From Halothiobacillus diazotrophicus (lineage in GTDB: Bacteria > Pseudomonadota > Gammaproteobacteria > Halothiobacillales > Halothiobacillaceae), in assembly GCF_001663815.1 (NCBI RefSeq), contig NZ_CP016027.1:1240001-1304000 (forward strand): 64,000 nucleotides of DNA, written 5' to 3'. Positions 37,302 to 53,319 of the stretch are shown here, one piece after another. Both the position numbers and the translations under genes were made by a program. The stretch's first letter is position 1. Each line of letters opens with the position of its first letter. A model generated the notes under the pieces. The model worked only from the letters and a program-made list of their open reading frames with translations, had not been told where the DNA came from and did not search any database.

Positions 37302-38858
37302 ATGAGCGCCATCCAACAAGCGAACACCCACCCCGAGTACACGTCGCATGCGGCGAAACTGGACTCATTAGCCACTTTCTTCAACCGTAGGGGCGACGAC
37401 CACGACCCCTTTCCGGAGGAATCGAACCGCAGACGCAACAATGGACTGATGGACGATGCCATTGCCCGTACGGGCAAGCGGGCCAGCCAGGGGAAGACCC
37501 TCGAGCGCCGGCAACTCATCTATCTCTCGTTTCGCAAGGACGATATCGGTGAAGACGTGGCGCGCATCGCTTCCTCATTCATGTGGGATGTCACCCTCGT
37601 CCATGATTGCGATCAATTGCAGCGCGCATTGAAACATGCGCCGGTCAAGGTGGTTCTGGCCGATCTTCGCGACGCCGTATCCAAACTCGGCGCCTGTCTC
37701 GTACAGACAACCCACAAATACCCGAACGTCCAATGGGTCGGCCTGGTGGAACCGCAGGCAGCAGACAGCCCGACTTATGCAGCTTTCCTGCACTCATACT
37801 TCTTCGATTTCTGTTTCCTGCCCCTGGAACCGCTGCGCCTGTTCTTCTCGCTGGGACACGCCTGGACGATGGCCCGGGTCGCCGATATCCACGCCGACAC
37901 GGTTTCCGTCGATGCCGGCACGGCTGGGATCAATGAACAGGGTCTGATCGGCAGCAGCCCCATCATGAAGACCGTCCGCGCACATCTGAAACGCTATGCC
38001 CGAAACGACCTGCCTGTGCTGATCACCGGCCCGACCGGTACCGGCAAGGAAATGGCCGCACGCTACCTGCACGAACACTCGGATCGGCACGACCGCCCCT
38101 TCATCGCCGTGAACTGTGGGGCGCTGACGCCGAGTCTCGTGCAATCGGAACTATTCGGTCATGAAAAGGGCGCCTTCACGGGCGCCCATCAACGCAAAAT
38201 CGGGCGCGTGGAGGCTGCCGACGGCGGCACGCTGATGCTGGATGAGATTGGCGACCTCCCGCTGGAAACGCAGGTCAGTCTGCTGCGATTTCTGCAGGAA
38301 GGCGTCATCGAGCGCGTCGGGAGTGACAGGAGCATCCCCGTGAACGTACGGATCGTAGCAGCCACCCATGTGGATCTCGAACAGTCGGTCGCTGAAGGTC
38401 GATTCCGCGAGGATCTGTATTTTCGTCTCAACGTACTGCGACTGGTCATGCCCCCGCTCGCCGAGCGCGGCACGGACGTGGTCGAACTCGCCCAGCACTT
38501 CATCCACCGGTTTGCCGATGAGCTCGGCCTGGAGCACAAGGTTCTGTGCCCCGCAGCCCTGGCGGCACTCTCAGCGTACACCTGGCCGGGCAATGTCCGT
38601 GAACTCATGAACCGGCTGAAACGCGCCATCGTGCATAGCGACCGCCAGGCGATTGGCCCGGCAGATCTCGAGTTCACCACCCTGGTCTCCGAGCCTTTGC
38701 CCAGTTTGGCCCAGGCGCGCAACGAGGCGGAATTACAGGCACTGTCGCGTGCGCTGGTCACGACCAACAGCAATGTCACCGAAGCGGCGGAAATGCTCGG
38801 CATCTCCCGGGTTTCGATGCATCGCCTGATCAACAAGCACGGCCTGTCCGCCCCGTGA
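37302..38858 (+). CDS. VpsR-like sigma-54-dependent transcriptional activator
   Basis: 518 residues. After a disordered start (about 1-65) comes a divergent receiver-like domain (about 70-190) with an aspartate in VVLADLRDA. The AAA+ domain (about 212-445) has Walker A TGPTGTGKEMAAR, the sigma-54 loop GAFTGA, Walker B TLMLDEIGDLP and RFREDLYFRLNVL. The C-terminal Fis-type helix-turn-helix ends VTEAAEMLGISRVSMHRLI. The receiver resembles VpsR and FleQ-type proteins, several of which bind cyclic-di-GMP. It lies about 100 bp after cfa and at the head of the signalling genes that lead to the fap operon, whose upstream region has a sigma-54 promoter; control of fap by this protein is inference. 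Confidence 0.88.
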   Translation: MSAIQQANTHPEYTSHAAKLDSLATFFNRRGDDHDPFPEESNRRRNNGLMDDAIARTGKRASQGKTLERRQLIYLSFRKDDIGEDVARIASSFMWDVTLVHDCDQLQRALKHAPVKVVLADLRDAVSKLGACLVQTTHKYPNVQWVGLVEPQAADSPTYAAFLHSYFFDFCFLPLEPLRLFFSLGHAWTMARVADIHADTVSVDAGTAGINEQGLIGSSPIMKTVRAHLKRYARNDLPVLITGPTGTGKEMAARYLHEHSDRHDRPFIAVNCGALTPSLVQSELFGHEKGAFTGAHQRKIGRVEAADGGTLMLDEIGDLPLETQVSLLRFLQEGVIERVGSDRSIPVNVRIVAATHVDLEQSVAEGRFREDLYFRLNVLRLVMPPLAERGTDVVELAQHFIHRFADELGLEHKVLCPAALAALSAYTWPGNVRELMNRLKRAIVHSDRQAIGPADLEFTTLVSEPLPSLAQARNEAELQALSRALVTTNSNVTEAAEMLGISRVSMHRLINKHGLSAP

Positions 38859-39274
38859 TACGCATGAGCCAGGAATCCCCTCGCCCTTGGGCAAAGTCCC
38901 GCTCCGGTGCACGCTCCTGGCTGACGTCGAACCAGCCGCTCTATGATCCCCGTCCATCCGATGGCAATCTCGTTCTCGACCGGGAGAACCGTCCAGGACT
39001 TCCCTCCGGGCGCAACGCACCTCATCCCCCCCCAGAACACGATGACCAAGGTGCCTCCGCAACCGGATGGCTCGATCCCCCGAAGCGCATACCTGCTGCA
39101 ATGACACGTGGCATACCGCGCGGGCCTGCATGGACTATTGACATAGGGTCCAAACAGGTAACACCCTACCGAAATGGCAGGTTATTGAAAAAGCACGATG
39201 AAGTGCGCGGATCGATGGGGCAATCGGATGACCGGCAGCCCCCAATCATGTACGAGGATCAGGGAGCGCGGAAG
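38859..39274. other. Region between the VpsR-like gene and the kinase start
   Basis: 416 bp. An open frame covers it continuously with the kinase, but the encoded residues are proline- and arginine-rich and unlike any domain, and the best ribosome site is at 39275. A perfect TTGACA lies near 39139 without a matching -10 box. If the longer frame is real, the kinase would have an extra 140-residue N-terminal tail. Confidence 0.45.
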
Positions 39275-41311
39275 ATGGTCGATCGCAAAAAACGCTACAA
39301 GACGGAGGCTGGCGCCTTACCTGCCGAGGGTAAGAGCAAGATGCCCGGCATGACCGCACAACCGTCGCCCGATAGCGACCCGAACACCGTGATCCGCAAC
39401 TTGCAGGCCCATCAGATCGAACTGCAGATGCAGAATGAAACCCTGCGGCACGCTCATATCGAACTGGCGGAATCGCGGGATCGCTACGCCGAACTCTATG
39501 ACCTGGCCCCCGTCGGTTACATCGCCCTCAACCGCGATGGTCTGATTGCCGAAGTGAACCTGACCGCCACCGCCATGCTCGGTCTTCCACGGCGTGCGTG
39601 CATCGGACGCCGCTTCGCTCAGTTCGTCGTTCCCGATGAGCAGGCGTACTGGTCCGCACAGTTTGCGGACATGGTGAAGCATACCGACCGCCAGCGGTTC
39701 AATCTGACCCTGGCGGGTGCCGACGGCACCATCATCCATACCCGCTTTGTCGGCATCGTTCGAGCCTCCAGCATGTCCGATATGGTCGTCTGGCTCATGT
39801 TTCTCGACGTCTCGGACCGACGGGCGACCGAAGATCAGCTCCGCAAGGTCTCCCTCGCCGTGGAGCAAAGTCCGGACAGCATCATGATCACCAATCTTCA
39901 GGGAATCATCGAATTCGTCAACCCCGCCTTCACGCAGATTTCCGGATATACGGCCGAGGAAGTCATCAATCGCACCCCCCGGATGCTGCAGTCCGGATTG
40001 ACGCCTGAGGAAACTTACCGATCACTGTGGCAATCTCTTGCCCGTGGCGAAATCTGGCGGGGCGAATTCGTCAACCGGCGCAAGGATGGTCTGTACTCCA
40101 TCGAATCCGCAACCATATCCCCCCTGCGACAAGCCGATGGCAAGGTGACTCATTACGTGTCGGTCCAGAAGGATATTACCGAGCTCAAACGCACCCTGAG
40201 CGAACTGATTGCGAGTCGGAATCGACTCCAATTGGCGCAAGAAGCGGCGGGTTTTGGCATCTTCGATCGGGACATTGCATCCGGACGACTGGAGTGGGAC
40301 GCGCGTGCGCGCGCAATATGCGGAGTGGATCTGGATACCCCGATCAATTTCACAACGTTCCTGGATCTGGTTCATCCGGATGATCGCAGCAAGATTCATG
40401 CAGCCATCGAGCGCGCGATGAAACCCGATCAGGGTAACGGCGTCTACCGTGTGGAGTACCGGATCATCAACCCGAAAACCGGCGAGGAACGCACCCTGAT
40501 GGCCAACGGCCAGACCTTTTTCGAAGGGGGACGCCCAACCCGGATTGTCGGCACAATTCAGGACATCTCCCAGCAGCGTGCCATGGAAGCCGAACTGAAA
40601 AACCGCCGCCGCGCCATGGATCGACTGGTTGATCAGCAGGTTGCGGCACAGACGGCCTCGGCCATCGCCCACGAGATCAATCAACCCCTCGCCTCGATTT
40701 CCGCCTACAGCGAAGCGGCAATCAACATGTTGCGCGCCGGTCATCTGGACAAGCTCGAACATGCCCTGCTCGGTGCAGCCGCTCAATCACAAAAAGCCGG
40801 ACAGGCTCTGCACGAGTTGCTCGAATTCCTCCAGGATGGCGAGATCATTCTCGAGCCGACGGATCTGAACGAGGTGATTCATGAAGCGCTCGCGGAAGTC
40901 GAGGATAGCGGATATACCGACTTTCATACCGCGGTGGAACTGATGCCCGATCTGAAGCCGGTCATGGCCAACCGGCTGCAACTGCAGAAAGTACTGATCA
41001 ACCTCGTCATGAACGGGGTGGATGCCATGCGGGAAGCTGGAATCTCCCCGGCACACATTACCATCCGGGTCCGTACCATGATCGATGACGGAATGGCCAT
41101 GACCACCATCCAGGATTCCGGGCCGGGCGTGAGCGCCGAGACGGCCAAGCGAATCTTCAACCCATTCTTCACCACCAAGACTAACGGCATCGGCCTGGGT
41201 CTTGCCATCAGCCGGGCCCTCATCGAAGCCCAGGGCGGGCGACTCTGGGTCGATATCGAGGCGGGTGAACGGGGTGCCGTTTTCCACTTCACACTACCCT
41301 TCGCATCATGA
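39275..41311 (+). CDS. PAS-domain sensor histidine kinase (FixL-like)
   Basis: About 678 residues from ATG 39275 (AGGGAG nine bases upstream). A coiled region (HQIELQMQNETLRHAHIELAE) leads into three PAS domains: about 70-175 (LYDLAPVGYIALNRDG), 190-310 (AVEQSPDSIMITNLQGII, GYTAEEVI) and 325-440 (QEAAGFGIFDRD). The kinase core has the phospho-histidine in SAIAHEINQPLASISAYSEA, the N box LINLVMNGVDAM, the G1 motif DSGPGVS and the G2 motif NGIGLGLAI. No membrane helix or signal peptide, so it senses a cytoplasmic or diffusible cue. Its stop overlaps the FixJ-like regulator start (ATGA), identifying the partner. No haem-binding PAS signature could be confirmed. Confidence 0.9.
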   Translation: MVDRKKRYKTEAGALPAEGKSKMPGMTAQPSPDSDPNTVIRNLQAHQIELQMQNETLRHAHIELAESRDRYAELYDLAPVGYIALNRDGLIAEVNLTATAMLGLPRRACIGRRFAQFVVPDEQAYWSAQFADMVKHTDRQRFNLTLAGADGTIIHTRFVGIVRASSMSDMVVWLMFLDVSDRRATEDQLRKVSLAVEQSPDSIMITNLQGIIEFVNPAFTQISGYTAEEVINRTPRMLQSGLTPEETYRSLWQSLARGEIWRGEFVNRRKDGLYSIESATISPLRQADGKVTHYVSVQKDITELKRTLSELIASRNRLQLAQEAAGFGIFDRDIASGRLEWDARARAICGVDLDTPINFTTFLDLVHPDDRSKIHAAIERAMKPDQGNGVYRVEYRIINPKTGEERTLMANGQTFFEGGRPTRIVGTIQDISQQRAMEAELKNRRRAMDRLVDQQVAAQTASAIAHEINQPLASISAYSEAAINMLRAGHLDKLEHALLGAAAQSQKAGQALHELLEFLQDGEIILEPTDLNEVIHEALAEVEDSGYTDFHTAVELMPDLKPVMANRLQLQKVLINLVMNGVDAMREAGISPAHITIRVRTMIDDGMAMTTIQDSGPGVSAETAKRIFNPFFTTKTNGIGLGLAISRALIEAQGGRLWVDIEAGERGAVFHFTLPFAS

Positions 41312-41925
41312 AAATGCACGACACCGTTTTCGTCGTCGACGACGACCCTGCCATTCGCGACTCGCTCTCCCTGTTGCTGGAACAGGAGGACATGACCGTG
41401 GTGAGTTACGAGAGCGCGGCTGAGTTCCTCAAGAACATCGATGCCCTCGTGCCCCGATGCTGCGCCATCATCGATATCCGGATGCCGGATATCGACGGCC
41501 TGCAATTGCAGGCGGAAATCATCAACCGAGGCATTCTGCTGCCGGTGATTTTCCTGACGGGTCACGGCGACATCCCGATGAGCGTCCGGGCAATCAAATC
41601 CGGCGCCGTGGACTTTCTCACCAAACCCGTCAGCGGCCACACTCTGCTGGAAAGCGTGCATGTCGCCCTGCTGGAAAGCGAACGGCTGTTCTCCCAAGCC
41701 GAAGCCAACCACTCGGCCCGATCCGTACTGGAAAGCCTGACCGACCGGGAGCGGGAAGTGATGAGCCTGGCGATCGAGGGCCGATCGAACAAAGAGATCG
41801 CCCGCCAGCTGGGCATCAGCCATCGCACGGTGGAAATCCACCGCGCACGTGTCATGCACAAAACCGGCGCCGACTCCCTCGTCGAACTCGTGCGCATCGC
41901 CGAGCTGGGTACAATCCCGTCCTAG
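41308..41925 (+). CDS. FixJ-family response regulator
   Basis: 205 residues: receiver domain (about 4-122) with VFVVDDDPAIRDSL, phospho-acceptor aspartate in CCAIIDIRMPDIDGL and lysine in VDFLTKPVSG, then a LuxR-type DNA-binding domain (about 137-200) with SLTDREREVMSLAIEGRSN and GISHRTVEIHRARVM. It is translationally coupled to the PAS kinase. Its targets are unknown; the closest candidates are the neighbouring cfa, Hsp20 and fap units. Confidence 0.93.
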   Translation: MKMHDTVFVVDDDPAIRDSLSLLLEQEDMTVVSYESAAEFLKNIDALVPRCCAIIDIRMPDIDGLQLQAEIINRGILLPVIFLTGHGDIPMSVRAIKSGAVDFLTKPVSGHTLLESVHVALLESERLFSQAEANHSARSVLESLTDREREVMSLAIEGRSNKEIARQLGISHRTVEIHRARVMHKTGADSLVELVRIAELGTIPS

Positions 41926-41978: not shown

Positions 41979-43679
41979 TCATGCCTTGCGTACCAGCATC
42001 GGGCCCGGGGCGGGAACAACCTCCGGCGCGGGATGATGGATGACGAATCGATTACCTCCGGCGCGCTTGGCCACATACATGGCCTCATCGGCATTTTTCA
42101 GCAGGGCAACAGCATCGCGCGCATCCTCGGGATAGATACTGACACCGATACTCGCCCGGACCCGCGCAGCCGGATGGCAGGCCAGCGGTCGGGCCAGTAC
42201 GCGCAAGATTCGTTCGAGCACCTCCCGCAATTGCCGTTGATCCTCGAAGTCATCCATGACCAGAACAAACTCGTCCCCACCATAGCGGGCCACCATGTCG
42301 CTCTCACGCAGGCCCCGCTGAATGCGCCGGGATACCTCCTGCAGCACCCGATCGCCGATCAGGTGACCGAAGGTATCGTTGATGGGCTTGAACCCGTCAA
42401 GATCGAGCAGGCAGACTGCCACCTCCCGCCCACTTCGCCTGGCCTGGGCCAGGGCAAGCGTCAAGCGTTCCTCAAGCAGCACGCGATTCGGCAGTCCCGT
42501 CAGAACATCGTGATGCGCCATAACCTGCAATTGTGCCTGCGAGGCGTGCAGCGCCCGGTTCACCCGACGCGCATGCCCGTACATCAAAAGCAAGGTCAGG
42601 AGGAACAGGGCAAACAGACCCATGATCGCCTCGAACGAATGGTGATCGATGTAGCGATGCCACGCCTGCCACTCGCCCTGTACCGCGGCGGCGGCTGGGT
42701 GCCTGACGGCGGGCGACACGACACGCGCCGACGTTATCCCGGACATACCCTCAAACCCCGCTGGCGACAACGGTGGCGACCAACCGGCGTAATTATTCTG
42801 CCGGGCGGCCGGGTCATCCGGCTGCATGACCAGCAAAGCGGCCGCCACCTGATTGATCAGCTTCATGGAAACATGCGACGCCGCAGTCAGGATCCACTCC
42901 GGGTAAAGTTGAGTCGACAGGCGAAACGGAAACTCCGGCCGGATCATCTCGTTGAGCACGCGTATCCGCGATAGATCCAATCGTCCGGCGCGCACCATGG
43001 ATTCGAGTACGCCGGTTCGGACAAACCCTGCATCGGCGTGTCCTTCCAGCACAGCAAGTACGCTCCGATCTTGCGGATTGCCCAATGCCATGAGCCGACT
43101 GTCCCGGACCACATCCACGCCATGACGGCTGAGGAGTCCCTGCTGGATCTGGAATCCATCGAACGAATCCCGAACGGAAAATGCGATGGTTTTGCCGCGC
43201 AGATCTTCAAGATGCTGTATATCCTGGCGTTGGCGCTGCGTGAACACGACACCGCCAAACTTGTTCAAGGGTACAGACTGACCTTGATTGATCAGCGTAC
43301 TGACATTGGATAGTCCGTAGGCCGCCTTCAGCCGGTTGGTATAGGCCGGATGCACCAGCAGGAAATCCAGCGTTCTGGCCTCCAGGGCGCGCTGAAGATC
43401 GGAGACCCCGACCGGCAACAGGACAAAGCGATGCCCAGGGACATGCGTGGACAGATAGCGCATGGTCGGTAACCACTGCTGATGAATCGCGCTGCGATCG
43501 AAATCGCTCAGAACGCCCACATAGACGGTCTGCTCGGCCATCCGCTCCTGGGCATGTGCAGCAGCGCCCCCGCCCAGTATTCCCCACATCACGACCACAA
43601 TCAGCCAGCACACGGGCGACATCCGGTTCGCACCCGCCAGAAGAATGGAATGCAGCAGTTTTCGCGGCGTATCGGTCAT
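41979..43679 (-). CDS. Diguanylate cyclase with PhnD-like periplasmic sensor domain
   Basis: About 566 residues from ATG 43679, preceded by GGGAA. A membrane segment near residues 20-40 is followed by a periplasmic domain (about 50-300) of the phosphate/phosphonate-binding PhnD type (VYVGVLSDFDRSAIHQQWLP, FLLVHPAYTNRL, LRGKTIAFSV, ADAGFVRTGVLESM). A second helix (about 370-392) and a GGDEF domain (about 405-550) complete it. The active motif is intact, ARYGGDEFVLV. The RESD sequence five residues before it is an RxxD inhibitory site. It should make cyclic-di-GMP in the cytoplasm in response to a bound periplasmic ligand. Confidence 0.9.
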   Translation of the reverse strand: MTDTPRKLLHSILLAGANRMSPVCWLIVVVMWGILGGGAAAHAQERMAEQTVYVGVLSDFDRSAIHQQWLPTMRYLSTHVPGHRFVLLPVGVSDLQRALEARTLDFLLVHPAYTNRLKAAYGLSNVSTLINQGQSVPLNKFGGVVFTQRQRQDIQHLEDLRGKTIAFSVRDSFDGFQIQQGLLSRHGVDVVRDSRLMALGNPQDRSVLAVLEGHADAGFVRTGVLESMVRAGRLDLSRIRVLNEMIRPEFPFRLSTQLYPEWILTAASHVSMKLINQVAAALLVMQPDDPAARQNNYAGWSPPLSPAGFEGMSGITSARVVSPAVRHPAAAAVQGEWQAWHRYIDHHSFEAIMGLFALFLLTLLLMYGHARRVNRALHASQAQLQVMAHHDVLTGLPNRVLLEERLTLALAQARRSGREVAVCLLDLDGFKPINDTFGHLIGDRVLQEVSRRIQRGLRESDMVARYGGDEFVLVMDDFEDQRQLREVLERILRVLARPLACHPAARVRASIGVSIYPEDARDAVALLKNADEAMYVAKRAGGNRFVIHHPAPEVVPAPGPMLVRKA

Positions 43680-44071
43680 TTGTTCCCATTCCTCATCTTC
43701 CCCGCCCATCCCCGTGATACGGCGGTACGTAAACCGAACGTGATCCGGCCCCACGCCCGCGACTGGATCTGACCATGCGGCTTCGGCAAACCACGGCATC
43801 GCACCAAGCGGCGATATACGCGCCGGGCGATGATTCACTCTCTGAGACCGTTACCGTAGTCCCCCCCCTGTGGCCATCCAATACGGGTGACTCCCTAAGG
43901 GCGATCCCCTACGGGTCCCACCTTACGCAGCCGCCCTTATTTGCCGGACCCTCCAACGAATCTAGAGTGACTCAAGATATGGCGTCTCGTCCCAACCCAA
44001 TGGCCTGGGCCGCCATCCCTCATCCGTATCGAGCATCTTCGGGCGGACGTTTTTTCAGGAGGAGAAATCTC
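43680..44071. other. Divergent region between the cyclase and the DUF2934-Hsp20 genes
   Basis: 392 bp. It contains a run of eight C (43861-43868) and, at about 43942-43970, a weak TTGCCG/TAGAGT pair with 16-bp spacing that could start the plus-strand genes. Longer in-frame starts for the DUF2934 gene through this region are rejected because GGAGGAG directly precedes the ATG at 44072. Confidence 0.4.
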
Positions 44072-45507: not shown

Positions 45508-46845
45508 TCAGAGGATAAAGGGAATCTTGATACCGAGCGTGAAATCCGGCGCGTCGGGCGTCAACCCCACGCCCAGCGTCGTCACCAGGGTGGTGCGTTT
45601 GTTCAACGCGTAGGTCATCCCCAGATTGAAGGTCGCGGCGTTGGCATTACTGCCGATCAGCGCCTGCCAGGGTTGCCCGTCGTACTTGATCCGGGCCTGA
45701 CGCGAAATCTGGTCGCTGACTGACAGGGACAGGCTGGCCCGATCGTTCAGCGCGAAGGCCAGGCCGAGCGCATAGGAGAACGACTCACCCAACTTCACGC
45801 GTCCGGGGTTCTGCACGGAGGGATCGATGCCGATGTCGTTGAAATGCCGGGAGAGGTAGCCGGTATAACCGAAGTTCGTGAAGATGAGGGCCGGATCCAT
45901 GGTCTTGACCATGGACAGGGAAACGCCATATCCCCACAGGCCGTTCCCCGTGGCCTGCTTCGTCGGCACGGAAAACTGCACGAAGGAATTCCCCGAGGCG
46001 TCCTGCCCGGCGTTGATCGTTTCCCAACTGATGCCGTAAGGGGCGCGTCCGGTCGGCGCAATGACGCTGCCGGTCAGTACGATGTCGGGCCAATCCTGGG
46101 TTTCTGGCAGCAACCGGTAGCTGAGGTTGAATGTCGTATCGCCCGGCGTGACGGTGCTGCCCTGGGACAACTCCGCATAACTCGCCGCCGAACCGCCCGC
46201 CCCGCCTTTCTGATAGGTGATCTGACGTTGCAGGAAAGGCGTCGACACGCCGATGTTCCAGCGGGGCGTCAGGCTGTACCGGGCGGCCAGACTGTAAGTC
46301 AGGGTGTCGCTGGCCACCTTGTCCACGGAAATATTCCCCAGGAAAATCGAATCCAGCGCGAGAAAACCGTTCAGCGCCAGTTGATTGCGATCGTAACGGC
46401 TATAGGTGATCCCCCCCTCGATGACCAGTCGTCGATCGAAGGCCACATGCTCCTGCTGCAGAAAATCGTCCACGCTGCGCTTGGTCGCCTTTTCCTTGTC
46501 GGCGGCGGTATGGCCGACTTCGGAAGTCTCGCCGGCAGTCGTGTTGCTCGACGCTGCCGTGGGGCCGCCCGAGGGTTCGGCACGGGTCGTCTGTCCGTCC
46601 GGCTGGACACCCGCCGCCTTCAATTGAGCCTGTATCGCCAGCAATCGCGCATCGACCTCGCGCAGCCGACGGACTTCCTTGACGTAGCTCTCGCGGAGCG
46701 TTTGCAGCTCGGCGCTCAATGCATTGACATCATCCACCTCGTTCGCCTGCGTGGCCTGCGGTGCGGCCACCATGCCCAGCCCGACCGAAACAGCCAAGGC
46801 CAGGCCCTGCTTCAGGCCCGTCTGCATCACATGTTCCTTTCTCAT
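45508..46845 (-). CDS. fapF: FapF: outer-membrane pore for functional amyloid secretion
   Basis: 445 residues. Signal peptide (cleavage about residue 35), a heptad-like coiled-coil segment (about 38-73, LSAELQTLRESYVKEVRRL), a serine- and threonine-rich linker (about 78-125), then a beta-barrel with alternating hydrophobic strands ending in IPFIL, typical for an outer-membrane protein. FapF of Pseudomonas is a trimeric barrel with an N-terminal coiled coil that exports FapB, FapC and FapE, and this layout matches. It is last in the fapA-F order. AGGAA lies seven bases before the ATG. A general phenol-degradation-type transporter barrel would be the alternative name if it stood alone. Confidence 0.85.
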   Translation of the reverse strand: MRKEHVMQTGLKQGLALAVSVGLGMVAAPQATQANEVDDVNALSAELQTLRESYVKEVRRLREVDARLLAIQAQLKAAGVQPDGQTTRAEPSGGPTAASSNTTAGETSEVGHTAADKEKATKRSVDDFLQQEHVAFDRRLVIEGGITYSRYDRNQLALNGFLALDSIFLGNISVDKVASDTLTYSLAARYSLTPRWNIGVSTPFLQRQITYQKGGAGGSAASYAELSQGSTVTPGDTTFNLSYRLLPETQDWPDIVLTGSVIAPTGRAPYGISWETINAGQDASGNSFVQFSVPTKQATGNGLWGYGVSLSMVKTMDPALIFTNFGYTGYLSRHFNDIGIDPSVQNPGRVKLGESFSYALGLAFALNDRASLSLSVSDQISRQARIKYDGQPWQALIGSNANAATFNLGMTYALNKRTTLVTTLGVGLTPDAPDFTLGIKIPFIL

Positions 46846-46972: not shown

Positions 46973-47845
46973 TCAGAGGCCGCGCAAGGTCGCCAATGCC
47001 ATACCCACCTGTTGCTTGAGATCCGCGCCGGGCAGGCCGGAAGCCTGACCGACACCGACCATCAGTCGTAACTGGTTCTGAATCTGCTGCTGATCGCCCG
47101 AGAGCTGGATCAACTGCATCGCATTACTGCCTCCACCAATCACCTGGCGGACGGTCGAGTCGCCGAGTTGAAGGGTGACGCCCGCCTGGTTGCCGCCGAT
47201 GATCCCCGCGCTGGCCGTGGCGCCACCCTGGCTGATCACGACCTGGGACGGCCCGCTGCCGGTGTTCGAGGCGTCGGTTGTCGGGACTGCACCACGCGCC
47301 CCGTAGGGTTGCACGGCCACCTGAAACTGGTTGGTGGCCCGATTGTCGTTACCGGCCACCTGGATCTGCTGACGCACCCCCCGGGTATCCTGCGCGGAGT
47401 GATCCTGAACCACGCCATCGGCGGCCACCTGGGTCGGCGTTCCCATGATCGTTACCATCGGCTGGAAGCTGACTGAAGGCTGCCCCTGGGAACGGTCGAT
47501 GCCCAACGTCATGCCCGCGCTCATGGCGCCACCGGCGGTTTGCCACTGGGACACCATCTGCACCCCGAAAAACACGACCTGCTGATTGTTCGGCAGGAAT
47601 TTCCCGCGCAGAACCGACAGCTCGGGGTCGGTCAGCGCCACGATGGCCGATTTTTTGGCGAAGGTGCCACCGGGGATATGCCCCGACACGGCGGTGTTGT
47701 CGGGTACGGGCGAGGCCGAGGCCAACCCGGCAAACAGGACACAGGACACGAGGGCGCCACCGACCACCCACGTCACGTCCCGTACGGTTTCCCGGTACTG
47801 TCGGTCCGGGGCTGCACGCCGAAAATTGCGCTTCGTATGATTCAT
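46973..47845 (-). CDS. fapE: FapE-like secreted component of the Fap amyloid system
   Basis: About 290 residues from ATG 47845, chosen because GGAGAG lies at good distance. After a signal or anchor segment (about 24-45, VVGGALVSCVLFAGLASA) comes a segment with LTDPELSVLRGKFLPNNQQ and VVFFGVQMVSQW, resembling FapE proteins. The C-terminal half is rich in glycine, glutamine and asparagine with strand-like repeats (VVISQGGATASAGI, VTLQLGDSTVRQVIGGG). Pseudomonas FapE is a minor fibre component. The assignment rests on position between fapD and fapF plus these motifs; sequence alone would be less certain. Confidence 0.75.
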   Translation of the reverse strand: MNHTKRNFRRAAPDRQYRETVRDVTWVVGGALVSCVLFAGLASASPVPDNTAVSGHIPGGTFAKKSAIVALTDPELSVLRGKFLPNNQQVVFFGVQMVSQWQTAGGAMSAGMTLGIDRSQGQPSVSFQPMVTIMGTPTQVAADGVVQDHSAQDTRGVRQQIQVAGNDNRATNQFQVAVQPYGARGAVPTTDASNTGSGPSQVVISQGGATASAGIIGGNQAGVTLQLGDSTVRQVIGGGSNAMQLIQLSGDQQQIQNQLRLMVGVGQASGLPGADLKQQVGMALATLRGL

Positions 47846-47930
47846 CGTTGACATCTCTCCATGCGGGGCAGTTGTCATCTGCACGGTTAAAGCAGCCGAT
47901 CTGTCGCCCGCTCTTGCGACTGCTGAGCGG

Positions 47931-48686
47931 CTAGAACAGATCGGCATGGGTAAATCCGAAATCCAGCAGTTCGGCCTTGGGGACGCCACCCGACCGTTCC
48001 TGCAGGTTTTTGGCACTGGGAATATCCGTAGCGTCCAGCAACGCCGTATGGCGATCGAAACCGGGGCCGATCACGGCAAAAATGGTTCGGGATGGCCAGG
48101 TCTCCAGAAATTTGGCCAGGGGATAGCGCCGATTGCCCAGGGCAGGATCGGCAATATGCACATACCCATCGCTGACGCTTTTCAGCACGACGAAATGGTT
48201 GTAGCCGTTCACGTTCATCAACACGATCGTCGGGACGTGGATCGACTCCAGACGCGCCAGATCGATGCGATAGCCGCGACCGCGATAACCCAGCTCAGCC
48301 AAGTATTCCTTCATGTCCAGCAGGGAAAAGCCCCGGGTCCGCACCAGTTCCGGATTGGCCACGCCCAACATGCCGGAAAGCACGGTTTCCTCCCCGAGGC
48401 GCAACCCGTAGGCGTAACGCAAAATCGTCGCCAGCGCCGCAGCACCACAGGAAAAGTCGTACTGCTGACGAACCACGTTCAGGTAACGCCGCTCCTGCAT
48501 GCTGATGACCGGTTTGGTCAGAATCGCGCCGTTCGGCAGGATGTCGCCGAAGCGGATCTCCGCCGCCCGAGCAGGTGCACCGACCATCCCGCCGGCAGTC
48601 AGAAGCACGACGAGCGTCACTGTCGCGAGCTGCGACTTTTTCGACGCCCGTTGGACCACAAGCCATTGGTTGAATAAACGCCGCAT
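47931..48686 (-). CDS. fapD: FapD: C39-family cysteine peptidase
   Basis: 251 residues with an N-terminal membrane or signal segment (about 20-42). The C39 domain is clear: the oxyanion glutamine and nucleophile cysteine in VRQQYDFSCGAAALATIL (cysteine about residue 81), histidine in GYNHFVVLKSVS and aspartate in VHIADPALGNRRYPL. In Fap systems this peptidase is required for amyloid secretion; its substrates are not settled. It lies 144 bp after fapC, across a perfect hairpin, and 85 bp before fapE. Confidence 0.9.
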   Translation of the reverse strand: MRRLFNQWLVVQRASKKSQLATVTLVVLLTAGGMVGAPARAAEIRFGDILPNGAILTKPVISMQERRYLNVVRQQYDFSCGAAALATILRYAYGLRLGEETVLSGMLGVANPELVRTRGFSLLDMKEYLAELGYRGRGYRIDLARLESIHVPTIVLMNVNGYNHFVVLKSVSDGYVHIADPALGNRRYPLAKFLETWPSRTIFAVIGPGFDRHTALLDATDIPSAKNLQERSGGVPKAELLDFGFTHADLF

Positions 48687-48830: not shown

Positions 48831-50066
48831 TTACTCGCCGGTGCCGCCCTTACCGCAGCTCACGCAGGAGACCGCCATGGACAGGCTGTTGCTCTGCAGG
48901 TTGCCGGTACCGGCTGCCACGTTCACGCCGATGTTGCCGGCTGCCTTGGAGAAGGCATTCCCGCTCAGGGAAGCGTCATTCTCGGCATTGATCACGACAT
49001 AACGCGTGGTGGCAACGCTACCGCTCATCACGGAGCTCAGACCGATCATGCCCTGCTCCTTGAAGCCCAGGCTGCCGCCTTCGGAACCGCTTGACTTCAT
49101 GTCATGGGTACCGAATGCCAGTGCGCCGCCATCGCCATTCAGATCGGAGCCGCCCTGAGTTGCCGTATCCAGATCGATATGGCCGGTGACAGAACCGCTC
49201 GGATGGCTCGCACCGCTCCAGGTATCGGGATAGACATTGCCGATCTGGTCCATCTGGCCGGTGATGGTGGAGCTGGTGCGACCGCTGTACGATCCGCTGC
49301 CAGCGCCCTTATAACCGCCGATGCTGCCGCCCTTGAGGGTGACATTCACGAGATCGGTGTATTTCTCGGTACGGCCTTCGTTGCGGATGCTGTTGCCCGC
49401 AGAAGCCTGCGTGCTGTTGATGGACGCACTGGCTACCCGTGAAGTCGATACGGAAGCCGCCATCGTGTTCTTCTGGCCGTTGCCGGTACCGGAAGCCACG
49501 TTCACGCCGATGTTGCCGGAAGCGCTCTGGAAGGCGTTGTCCGCGATGGATGCGGTGTTGGTGACGCCGCTGTTCATGGTCGTGTTGCCCATGTTGGTCT
49601 GACCGACATCCACCGTTGCGGTGGACTGGCCGAACACGAAACCGGCATCAACTGCTGCCAGGGCAGCCGCATTGTCCTGCACGTTGGTATCGCCTGCAGC
49701 CACGTTCATGCCGATGTTGCCGCTCGCGTTGGTGCCGACGTTGTCACCGATCTTGGCGTTGTTGGTCAGCTTGACGTTATCCACCTCGTTGTTGGTGATG
49801 AGTTGCTGATCCATGGCATTGGCGGCTGCTTCCGCATTCACCGTGATGTCGCGGACATCGTTGTTGACGATGTTGTCCGTGACGTTCTTGTTGATGGTCT
49901 TGTTGACCTTCAGGTTGATGTCTTTCTTGACACTGATGTCCTTGCTGATCTTGATCTTCACATCCGGCTTGCCGTGATGCCCTTCGTGGTCATCGGCCAT
50001 GGCCGGAGCAGAAACCAGTGCCGCGATGGCAGAGGCGATCAGCGTCATCTTGATTTGCGTTTTCAT
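48831..50066 (-). CDS. fapC: FapC-like major amyloid subunit
   Basis: 411 residues from ATG 50066 (AAGGA eight bases upstream). Signal peptide 1-24 (ending APAMA), a histidine- and lysine-rich segment (25-60), then three imperfect amyloid repeats at about 103-137, 171-206 and 364-399, each with a core like SGNIGVNVASGTGNGQKN. The linker between repeats one and two is about 33 residues; that between two and three about 158 residues and rich in glycine, serine and threonine. The C-terminus has CVSC (401-404), a CxxC. Three repeats separated by variable linkers are the FapC architecture, and its place third in the operon agrees. Confidence 0.88.
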   Translation of the reverse strand: MKTQIKMTLIASAIAALVSAPAMADDHEGHHGKPDVKIKISKDISVKKDINLKVNKTINKNVTDNIVNNDVRDITVNAEAAANAMDQQLITNNEVDNVKLTNNAKIGDNVGTNASGNIGMNVAAGDTNVQDNAAALAAVDAGFVFGQSTATVDVGQTNMGNTTMNSGVTNTASIADNAFQSASGNIGVNVASGTGNGQKNTMAASVSTSRVASASINSTQASAGNSIRNEGRTEKYTDLVNVTLKGGSIGGYKGAGSGSYSGRTSSTITGQMDQIGNVYPDTWSGASHPSGSVTGHIDLDTATQGGSDLNGDGGALAFGTHDMKSSGSEGGSLGFKEQGMIGLSSVMSGSVATTRYVVINAENDASLSGNAFSKAAGNIGVNVAAGTGNLQSNSLSMAVSCVSCGKGGTGE

Positions 50067-50112
50067 AGTAACTATCCTTCTTGTTGGGTTTACATCGATC
50101 ATGAAACCAGCC

Positions 50113-50766
50113 TCAGGGCATCGAGATTGAGAAGTGATTGGCCGTCATATTCCCGATCCCTGAAACCTGGTTGATTTGGAGTACACCGCTGAATCCGGAT
50201 AACGCGCCCTCGCCGATGACGGCGCGATACCGATCCGGGATGTGCCCCGCCCTCCGCCCAGTATCCTGGCCGGAGAGATTCGGCAACGGCTTCGGGATTC
50301 CCGCGCCCATTGCACGAATTCCTGACGACGACGAGCCACCGCCCCCCATCGACATCGTGTTCACCTGTGCATTGCCTGCACCACTGACCTGATTGATGCC
50401 AAGCACACCGGCCGAGTGGCTGAATGCCTGTCCGCCGATTTCCGTTTGCGCGTCCAGCGCAGCGCCGCCCGACACATTGCTCGGCTTGTGGACGCCAAGG
50501 GGTGTCACCGGCCCGGCAACGACGCCACCGCCTACCCCGATTTGTCGCTGATTTGCCTGGATATTGCCGTCGCCGGCCGCCGTGTTTACCGCCATATTCC
50601 CGGATGCGCCGCTCCCGACCTGCCCATTGATACGAGAACTGTCCAGCACCTGGAGCATCCAGTCGTACTCGTCCGCCTGCGCGGTGGTACCGAGCAGCCC
50701 CAGAACCAGACCCAAGCTCAGAATGAGTCTGCGCGGGCGAATCTGCCGGGACAGGTGTGGGCTCAT
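50113..50766 (-). CDS. fapB: FapB-like minor amyloid subunit
   Basis: 217 residues with a signal peptide (cleavage about residue 31, TTAQA). Three imperfect repeats at about 44-78 (SGNMAVNTAAGDGNIQAN), 106-140 (AGVLGINQVSGAGNAQVN) and 183-216 (SGVLQINQVSGIGNMTAN) share the Fap pattern of a strand, GN turn and asparagine or glutamine ladder. Linkers are short and glycine- and serine-rich. In Pseudomonas FapB is the proposed nucleator. Its start overlaps the fapA stop (ATGA), and fapC follows after 46 bp. The FapB name is from order; a FapE-like role cannot be excluded. Confidence 0.8.
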   Translation of the reverse strand: MSPHLSRQIRPRRLILSLGLVLGLLGTTAQADEYDWMLQVLDSSRINGQVGSGASGNMAVNTAAGDGNIQANQRQIGVGGGVVAGPVTPLGVHKPSNVSGGAALDAQTEIGGQAFSHSAGVLGINQVSGAGNAQVNTMSMGGGGSSSSGIRAMGAGIPKPLPNLSGQDTGRRAGHIPDRYRAVIGEGALSGFSGVLQINQVSGIGNMTANHFSISMP

Positions 50767-51272
50767 GGCCGGGCGCCTCCCGACAACAGCCCGCTGGCAC
50801 CCAGAGCACCGGAGACGGTTGGCGCGATTCCACCCGTTGCCGAACGAATGGCACTACCCGCAGTGCCCGCAGATGCGCCGCCCTGCGTGGGTGTCAACAG
50901 GCCGGTCGTTGTGGCCTGAACGTTCTCCCGAACCAGTTGCGCAGTCAGCGGCCCTTGGCGAGGCGACGTGACCACCCCCGGTGCGTTGGCTGAGAGCGCG
51001 GCGTAGTCGGCATTCGACAATTCCGCCGACCCCAGACCCTGTGCGATTTCCGCTAGCGGACTCGGGTTCAGCATCACGGCCTTCGATGGCGGCATGGCAC
51101 GAGCGGCCGGCCGTGCCGGCACATTGCGCAGGATAACGATGTCGCCCGGATCGGCCTTGACCTGATTCTTGACGCCCGCCGCCTGGGCTTCGCGCCAGAG
51201 CGGGAGGCTGAGAATCAGTGCCGCGCCACTGAACAGGCAGCCCTGCCAAACACATTGAATTCGATTAGCCAT
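50763..51272 (-). CDS. fapA: FapA-like periplasmic protein
   Basis: 169 residues with a signal peptide (about 1-31, ending REAQA). The middle contains KADPGDIVILRNVPARPAAR and MLNPSPLAEIAQGLGSAELS; the C-terminal third is low-complexity, rich in glycine, alanine, serine and threonine. In Pseudomonas FapA is a periplasmic protein that restrains FapC and affects fibre composition. Sequence similarity is weak and the name rests on first place in a complete A-F operon. GAGG lies upstream of the ATG, and the sigma-54 promoter at 51328-51343 is about 55 bp away. Confidence 0.7.
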   Translation of the reverse strand: MANRIQCVWQGCLFSGAALILSLPLWREAQAAGVKNQVKADPGDIVILRNVPARPAARAMPPSKAVMLNPSPLAEIAQGLGSAELSNADYAALSANAPGVVTSPRQGPLTAQLVRENVQATTTGLLTPTQGGASAGTAGSAIRSATGGIAPTVSGALGASGLLSGGARP

Positions 51273-51327
51273 GACCTGACGTCCTCGCGTTGCCCCAGGT
51301 GGGAATCACCTTGCATGTCTTGGATTG

Positions 51328-51343
51328 AGCAACATCGATGCCA
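51328..51343 (-). promoter_or_regulatory. Sigma-54 promoter of the fap operon
   Basis: On the minus strand TGGCATCGATGTTGCT: the -24 GG and -12 GC elements are spaced exactly ten bases apart and the consensus TGGCAC-N5-TTGCT is matched at all but one defined position. Predicted transcription would start near 51317, leaving a leader of about 45 nt before fapA. Confidence 0.75.
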
Positions 51344-51436
51344 GAAAATGAATCGCTTTCAGATCAGCGAATTACATCGAATAGCCAGGCAAACGGATGA
51401 CGTTTTGTTTCAGTTTCGGAACAGTTTTTCGGTACG

Positions 51437-51468
51437 AAAAAAAGGAAACCGCGCCAAAGCGCGGTTTT
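51437..51468 (-). terminator. Second terminator downstream of the chemoreceptor gene
   Basis: Minus-strand stem AAACCGCGC/GCGCGGTTT (51446-51454 and 51459-51467), loop of four, then CCTTTTTTT. It lies about 150 bp beyond the first terminator (51612-51632) and insulates the fap promoter; it could also end a small RNA starting in between. Confidence 0.8.
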
Positions 51469-51611
51469 GAGTGCAACTAATTTGAGACAGTACGCTGGGG
51501 TACAACACGGATTGGTACAGGCGCTCACAAGGCGCCATCAAACAAAGCCCCTAGAAAATCAAGGGATAAACGCGGGATGACAAGACCCGTCACCCCATGT
51601 AATAAGCCCGC

Positions 51612-51632
51612 AAAAAAGGGGCATGACGCCCC
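51612..51632 (-). terminator. Terminator of the chemoreceptor gene
   Basis: Minus-strand stem GGGGC/GCCCC (51628-51632 with 51618-51622), five-base loop, followed by TTTTTT, 65 bp after the stop codon. Confidence 0.7.
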
Positions 51633-51696
51633 CCATCGATAAAGGCAGCGGCACCCTGCCCGGAATACCGCTACTCAGCGATGTGCGGTGACGGGC

Positions 51697-53319
51697 TCAG
51701 GCCTTGAAACGACCGACCTGTCGATCCAGGTTGGCGGCCAGGCGGGTCAGATCGGCGCCGGCAATGGAAACCTGCTCTGCCGAATCGTCGAGGTGTTCGC
51801 TCTGCACCCGGATTTTCGAAAGGTTCTGATTGATCTCGGCCGCCGCTGCCGATTGCTCCTCGGTTGCGGCTGCGACTTGCAAGGTCATCTGGGTAATGGC
51901 GTTCACCCGCGTAATGATCACATCGAGCAGTTCATCGGTTTCTGCCGTCAGCTTGATGGTTTCCTGACCATGCGCCTCGCTGGTCTGCATGGCCTTGGCT
52001 GTCTCGCTGACGCGCTCCTGGAGCTGTTCGATGATTTCCCGGATCTCCTCCGTTGAGCGCTGAGTCCGACTGGCAAGATTGCGGACTTCCTCGGCCACCA
52101 CGGCAAAACCGCGACCGTGTTCGCCAGCCCGGGCCGCCTCGATCGCGGCATTCAATGCCAGCAGGTTTGTCTGCTCGGCGACACTCCGGATCACATCGAG
52201 CACACCACCGATTTTCGCGGTCTGCCCTTCCAGCTCATGCACCGACTCCGTGGTCGTGTGCATATGGTTCACCAGCTTGTTGATGCTTTGGACCGAGCGA
52301 TTCAGAACTTCCTTGCCGGCACGGGTCGCCTCATCGGTTTCCTGGGCGGCAAAGGCGGTTTCGTTGGTGTTCTGGGCGACGGTTTTGGTCGTTGCCGTCA
52401 TTTCGTCGATAGCGACGGCAACCAACTCGGTCTGTTCGGTCTGGTGTCGGGTATTCTCCCGTGACATCTGGGTGATGGTCGACATTTCCTCTGCGGAGGC
52501 AGCCAGATGTGTTGTGGAATCGGTAATTTCGCGGACCAGGTCCTGAATCTTGATCACGAACCGGTTGAAGGTTCTGGCCAAATCGGCGATTTCGTCGCGC
52601 CCGGTATCCGGCAGTCGTTTGCGCAAGTCGCCATCCCCGGAGGCGATTTCATGCATGGCGCGTGTGACCGAAGACAGTCGGCTCGATACCGAACGCATGA
52701 CCAGCACGATCAGGGTCAATCCGATCGCCAAGGCGATCACGCCCACCCAGATACTCAACTGGCGCGCCTTCTCCGCACGTTTTTTGATGTCGCCTTGCAT
52801 CTGTAACGCCTGAGCTTTCCAAGCTTCGGTCAACGCCTGGAGATCCTTTCGAATCTGCTGCCAGTTGGGAAACTCCGATTCCAGTAGCGTCTGCGTGGCG
52901 ACATCCAGATTGCCGGCTTCGACGTCCTTGAACACGCCGATACGCGCCGCTTCCACAAGCGCCCAACGCTTCGCGACATCTTCCAGCAATTCGTTGCTTG
53001 CCTTGTCATCAGCCGGTGTCAGAGAACGCACCATTTCCAGATCTTTTTTGAAGATCTCATTGGTTTTCATCATTACCTTGTACGGCGGCGCGTACTTGGG
53101 CTTGAACACCTTGTTACGCGTGGCCACACCGCCGAGCAAACCGTTGCTACTCATCTCCTGTAGGAGATCCAATCGCGCATACTGCGTCGTGTAAAGATTC
53201 TGATAGGAGGTCGTCACCGAGCTCATATTGCTCAGGATATAGATCAGGACACCGACGAACAGAAGCGCCGATGCCATAAACGAGATCAGAATCTTCGCCG
53301 TGTTGCTGTAAATATTCAT
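51697..53319 (-). CDS. Methyl-accepting chemotaxis protein
   Basis: 540 residues: membrane helix 1 (about 9-31), periplasmic four-helix-type sensor domain (about 35-190), helix 2 (about 190-212), HAMP domain (about 213-266, [20 protein letters not shown]) and a cytoplasmic signalling domain whose hairpin tip is [30 protein letters not shown] in part (about 370-400). No C-terminal pentapeptide tether is visible. The ligand is unknown. A sigma-28 promoter precedes it (53375-53401), so it belongs to the flagellar-chemotaxis regulon. Confidence 0.94.

Follow-up and report, generated by a model that had tools for sequence, protein, structure and literature searches.

The regulation of functional amyloid (Fap) production has, as far as the open-access literature shows, been worked out in one isolate of Pseudomonas fluorescens only. 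According to the published account of this strain, PF07, fapA is transcribed from a -24/-12 RpoN promoter that was mapped by 5'-RACE, and fap expression needs both rpoN and brfA, the latter being the adjacent, reverse-oriented gene after fapF (PMC9207406). In the literature BrfA figures as an enhancer-binding protein that senses c-di-GMP, and BrfA-type factors as widespread in Pseudomonas (PMC13101488). Two further biofilm regulators invite comparison. BerB of Burkholderia cenocepacia is likewise reported to be a c-di-GMP-responsive sigma-54 activator with a GAFTGA motif that controls the biofilm matrix, but it is described as having no N-terminal input domain and as activating berA, for exopolysaccharide, rather than fap (PMC5552954, PMC9684580). 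VpsR of Vibrio cholerae is a biofilm regulator of the enhancer-binding kind that carries an N-terminal VpsR domain (PF20161) and is reported to be RpoN-independent (PMC5552954). A 2018 review presented fap regulation as still to be investigated (PMC6173800), a term search of the 2013 survey of fap found mention of neither Halothiobacillus nor sigma factors (PMC3792158), and we found no report in the open-access literature of a conserved fap control module outside Pseudomonas.

Here we describe a locus of Halothiobacillus diazotrophicus that resembles the reported PF07 system in having a -24/-12 element, TGGCATCGATGTTGCT, before fapA and a fap-linked, Fis-type sigma-54 activator (PMC9207406, PMC13101488). 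We put at about 85% the probability that TGGCATCGATGTTGCT serves as sigma-54 promoter for a functional-amyloid operon with all six genes, fapA-F, run by a BrfA-type activator through an upstream palindrome; whereas the PF07 promoter is reported to have been mapped experimentally, control in Halothiobacillus is predicted from sequence. The locus lies in a window of 64 kb, by which we mean the whole stretch of DNA analysed (1,240,001-1,304,000 of the single-contig 2.9-Mb genome). Six genes, fapA-B-C-D-E-F, stand in the expected order on the minus strand and are all named by NCBIfam profiles, FapC being the only one of the six proteins to pass the curated cut-off. They encode the amyloid chaperone FapA (50763..51272; 1.5e-8, 35 bits against a cut-off of 110), the minor fibre subunit FapB (50113..50766; 6e-20, below cut-off), the major fibre subunit FapC (48831..50102; 2e-65, 221 bits, above the cut-off of 195), the C39 peptidase FapD (47931..48686; Pfam C39 2e-20, NCBIfam FapD 4e-73, below cut-off), FapE (open reading frame 46973..48016, within which the true start probably lies; 6e-17, below cut-off) and the outer-membrane export pore FapF (45508..46845; 3e-115, below cut-off), whose family profile matches the FapF structures 5o65, 5o67 and 5o68.

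The candidate promoter is a 16-mer on the minus strand (51343..51328) in which GG and GC are separated by ten bases within a TGGCAY-N5-TTGCW context. As the initial annotation had it, the element precedes fapA on the appropriate strand, with 55 nt between its 3' end and the ATG at 51272; from the usual -24/-12 spacing, transcription is predicted to start at about 51317. The genome contains rpoN. Taken by sequence alone, TGGCATCGATGTTGCT could be a chance match: TGGCAYN5TTGCW, the strict pattern, has 10 matches in the 2.9-Mb genome against 6 for the reversed control, and a looser sigma-54 pattern has 16 matches in the window against 29 expected from shuffles. The significance of the element therefore rests on its position and on its conservation in relatives. 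Of 40 genomes searched, 14 have fapF, two of them among the 10 from the genus of the window, and GG-N10-GC precedes the first fap gene at all ten loci whose upstream region is kept (the window and nine relatives). A wider scan for FapD yielded 80 named loci, mostly from Xanthomonadales and also from Halomonadaceae, Pseudomonas, Vibrio and Shewanella, and at most of these a strong -24/-12 element occupies the corresponding place. The initial proposal of a near-consensus sigma-54 promoter for fap is supported by this recurrence, across the Gammaproteobacteria, of site, fap genes and linked activator together.

The activator gene of the window (37302..38858, plus strand) encodes an N-terminal VpsR domain (PF20161, 8.8e-10), an AAA+ domain with GAFTGA and Walker A motifs, and a Fis-type helix-turn-helix. 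It had been called a VpsR-like sigma-54 activator 13 kb away; the domain and approximately the distance are right (12.5 kb from TGGCATCGATGTTGCT, and 6.6 kb beyond fapF, which it does not adjoin), but 'VpsR-like' is a domain label alone, since V. cholerae VpsR itself works without sigma-54, and we rejected naming this a VpsR system on grounds of mechanism. The retained GAFTGA motif of the window protein points away from VpsR-type, sigma-54-free activation. In contrast to the reported PF07 arrangement, activator and fapF are separated by genes for a histidine kinase, a response regulator, a diguanylate cyclase and by small open reading frames. In the sister genome (G005) the activator directly follows fapF in convergent orientation, as is described for brfA, and in Guyparkeria it directly precedes fapA. 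The PAS-rich histidine kinase and LuxR-type response regulator (38855-41925, plus strand) lie directly behind the activator gene and the ends overlap, which gives the three the look of one operon, and the diguanylate cyclase (41979-43838, minus strand), which has a phosphonate-binding-type periplasmic domain, is a possible local source of c-di-GMP. When the proteins of ten neighbouring genes, the activator apart, were compared with the stretches near fap in six relatives, no match was found.

That the activator belongs with fap is indicated by its distribution. A match of more than 330 bits was present in 12 of 14 fapF-bearing genomes and in none of the 26 that have no fapF; the two exceptions are a genome with a fapF fragment only (G022) and one with a more distant fap-linked activator (G034). 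It was found on 72 of the 80 named fap loci and on all 20 Pseudomonadaceae loci fetched later. Four of the eight named loci without it are cut by contig ends; at the other four (L140, L141, L149 and L150) about 10 kb is available on each side, so the activator is truly not beside fap there. In eight loci of the S. maltophilia type (L092, L095, L097, L126, L105, L108, L110 and L117) the activator gene precedes fap, points the other way and encodes no exact GAFTGA, the first four reading GSFTGA instead. The PF20161 domain by itself proved too loose a marker for fap, being matched in 117 of 369 genomes of the class; at least 19 of 33 fapF-bearing genomes have it no more than about 8 kb from fapF.

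One alternative is a promoter that depends on sigma-54 and is activated by a different enhancer-binding protein, of which the genome has about ten in all, for example one of FleQ or NtrC type. The initial annotation had argued that the candidate is the only such activator in the window. It is indeed the sole PF00158 match there, but the rest of the genome holds nine more strong ones (149.7-259.8 bits), so this is weak evidence and we dropped the argument; the 12.5 kb between gene and promoter also counts in favour of the alternative. Against this stand the way in which the fap-linked activator tracks the presence and absence of fap in relatives, its occurrence on nearly all named and later loci, and its recognition helix, SR-x-[TS]-x-[YH]-[RK]-[LI], which is alike in the lineages that bear the palindromic box described below and unlike that of seven other activators of the genome. 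Taken together we regard activation by another protein as improbable. The same helix is common to fap-linked and several fap-unlinked VpsR-domain activators, and phylogeny draws no line between them. In a tree the window activator groups with all VpsR-domain activators (100/99), and the fap-linked proteins are not separated from 10 fap-unlinked ones (7 changes); of the 12 fap-unlinked proteins fetched, 2 were excluded for low score, and 5 rows of the first tree were left out. A clade of fap-linked activators, apparent when only the other activators of the genome were compared, failed once these 10 proteins were added.

If a BrfA-type activator runs the promoter, a binding site should be recognisable upstream, and the initial annotation had suggested searching for a palindrome. 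One exists, at a fixed distance from the promoter. It is 18 bp long, reads TGTNTCA-N4-TGANACA and was recognised in ten upstream regions, with copies some 80 nt and 150-170 nt ahead of the -24 element. In the window, the candidate proximal box is TGTTTCAGTTTCGGAACA (51406..51423, given on the plus strand), with 2 mismatches in 12 positions, and this is the sole place in the 64 kb with two or fewer. Genome-wide there are 37 such places (19 for the reversed control), about one per 79 kb, and a chance copy in the right slot is therefore unlikely. A weak and uncertain distal candidate, with 3 mismatches in 12, lies 66 bp from the proximal box (51472..51489) and is one of 11 places in the window with three or fewer; both window boxes match the palindrome less well than most do. 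A terminator-like hairpin with a T run (51467..51446, minus strand) follows the gene for a methyl-accepting chemotaxis protein (MCP) upstream of TGGCATCGATGTTGCT (51697-53319). It had been taken to isolate the promoter from that gene, and it does stand between the two, but it is not an edge of the control region, because it is located between the proximal and the candidate distal box.

Across other loci the palindrome (two or fewer mismatches in 12, within 300 nt) was found at 47 of 53 independent Xanthomonadales-type promoters, against a mean of 0.2 and a maximum of 1 in shuffles and none in the downstream control, and at 6 of 14 other fap loci. For these two counts the test sites had to fit TGGC[AC/AT], which holds for 67 of the 80 named loci and leaves out 13; loci with enough upstream DNA were all counted in the later test of 102 loci. 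That test used a composite rule, a GG-N10-GC site scoring at least 5/8 together with a box in slots -79..-84 or -150..-170, and the rule was satisfied at 78 of 102 fap loci, against 3 on the reverse strand and 0 in shuffles. Counted among the 102 are the ten loci that had served to define the box; of 106 loci in all, 4 had too little sequence for the test. When scores and slots were kept unchanged, 17 of the 20 newly fetched Pseudomonadaceae loci conformed, against 1 on the reverse strand. The box is not a universal feature of fap, the rule failing at 24 of the 102 loci; at 17 of these, the Halomonas group included, a promoter-like site could be picked by eye, and the motif upstream of it is weaker, displaced or of another kind; the other 7 show no clear promoter site. 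The anatomy of the promoter region and its fixed geometry are observed across loci, and are conserved along with fap and the activator.

The loci of the P. jinjuensis genus, most of which begin their -24 element with CGGCAC where the window has TGGCAT, all (20/20) carry copies of the palindrome with two or fewer mismatches, the usual positions being -82 and -166, with -240 also frequent. Two genomes of this genus have two fapD loci each (L227 and L229 in G391, L228 and L230 in G408), with boxes upstream of all four. In P. jinjuensis a good copy of the box also occurs outside fap (L196; G391 C13:358930), flanked by potassium-transporter-like and peroxiredoxin-like genes, named by eye; this copy may be due to chance or may mark another target.

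Might the palindrome be the site of a different regulator at the fap promoter, such as a repressor, and not that of the activator? The Halomonas group, in which the activator is present and the palindromic box is not, speaks for such a reading. At seven of its loci (L143, L144, L151 and L154-L157) a strong -24/-12 element is accompanied instead by a GTTACA-like motif near -71. However, the palindrome occurs in twos or threes, with copies near -80, -160 and -240, as suits an enhancer-binding protein, and the sites described for BrfA are relevant here. The 2024 primary paper on BrfA, by Guo et al., reportedly gives three enhancer sites with the consensus CA-N4-TGA(A/T)ACACC, which would fit one half of the palindrome, as the number of sites would fit the three positions of the copies; in its exact form this consensus occurs at only 1/20 and 5/20 Pseudomonadaceae loci. 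We consider a site for another regulator just as improbable as activation by another protein. Less probable still is a chance -24/-12 match with fapA served by a sigma-70-type promoter, since, for all that the strict pattern hardly exceeds its reversed control, no sigma-70-like site was found in the region examined (50500-52500) and across many families the same element keeps its position with respect to fapA and box.

Between the boxes and the promoter lies a further element, which speaks for the preferred reading of a sigma-54 promoter run by the BrfA-type activator. An IHF-like site, TAATTCGCTGATC (51362..51374, minus strand), is found 31 nt before TGGCATCGATGTTGCT, with one mismatch to the IHF consensus used for scoring. 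Matches to this consensus with at most one mismatch and within 75 nt were present at 57 of 95 fap promoters (the 78 that satisfy the composite rule and 17 chosen by eye), against about 8.6 expected from shuffles, and 46 of the 57 start at -31 or -32.

A model for control of the operon can be drawn from these features. RNA polymerase with RpoN would sit in a closed complex at 51343..51328, the promoter being off until activated. The BrfA-type activator encoded at 37302-38858 would bind the palindrome at 51406-51423, and perhaps also that at 51472-51489. IHF would bend the DNA at 51362-51374, and the AAA+ ring of the activator, with its GAFTGA loop, could therefore reach sigma-54 and open the promoter. 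The likely signal, to judge from BrfA, is c-di-GMP. RpoN dependence, activator binding, IHF bending and control by c-di-GMP are what we infer for this Halothiobacillus.

Control of fap by RpoN and BrfA is already known from P. fluorescens, and Halothiobacillus would be a new lineage for it. What appears to be new is that the whole predicted module, of promoter, IHF site, boxes and activator, is kept with fap across many gammaproteobacterial families. We lean, with some reserve, towards the view that the module of sigma-54 promoter, IHF site, phased boxes and BrfA-type activator is ancestral, nearly inseparable from fap, and has travelled with it across these families. If so, c-di-GMP and RpoN would govern Fap production in nearly every one of them, and the palindromic box could help to find further targets. 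Boxes and promoter together yield a concrete rule by which control of fap can be tested in Halothiobacillaceae, Xanthomonadales, Pseudomonadaceae and others. In this sulphur-oxidising chemolithotroph the biofilm matrix would be tied to a likely signal, and the conservation of the module suggests that production of an amyloid matrix is an output of c-di-GMP and RpoN in general.
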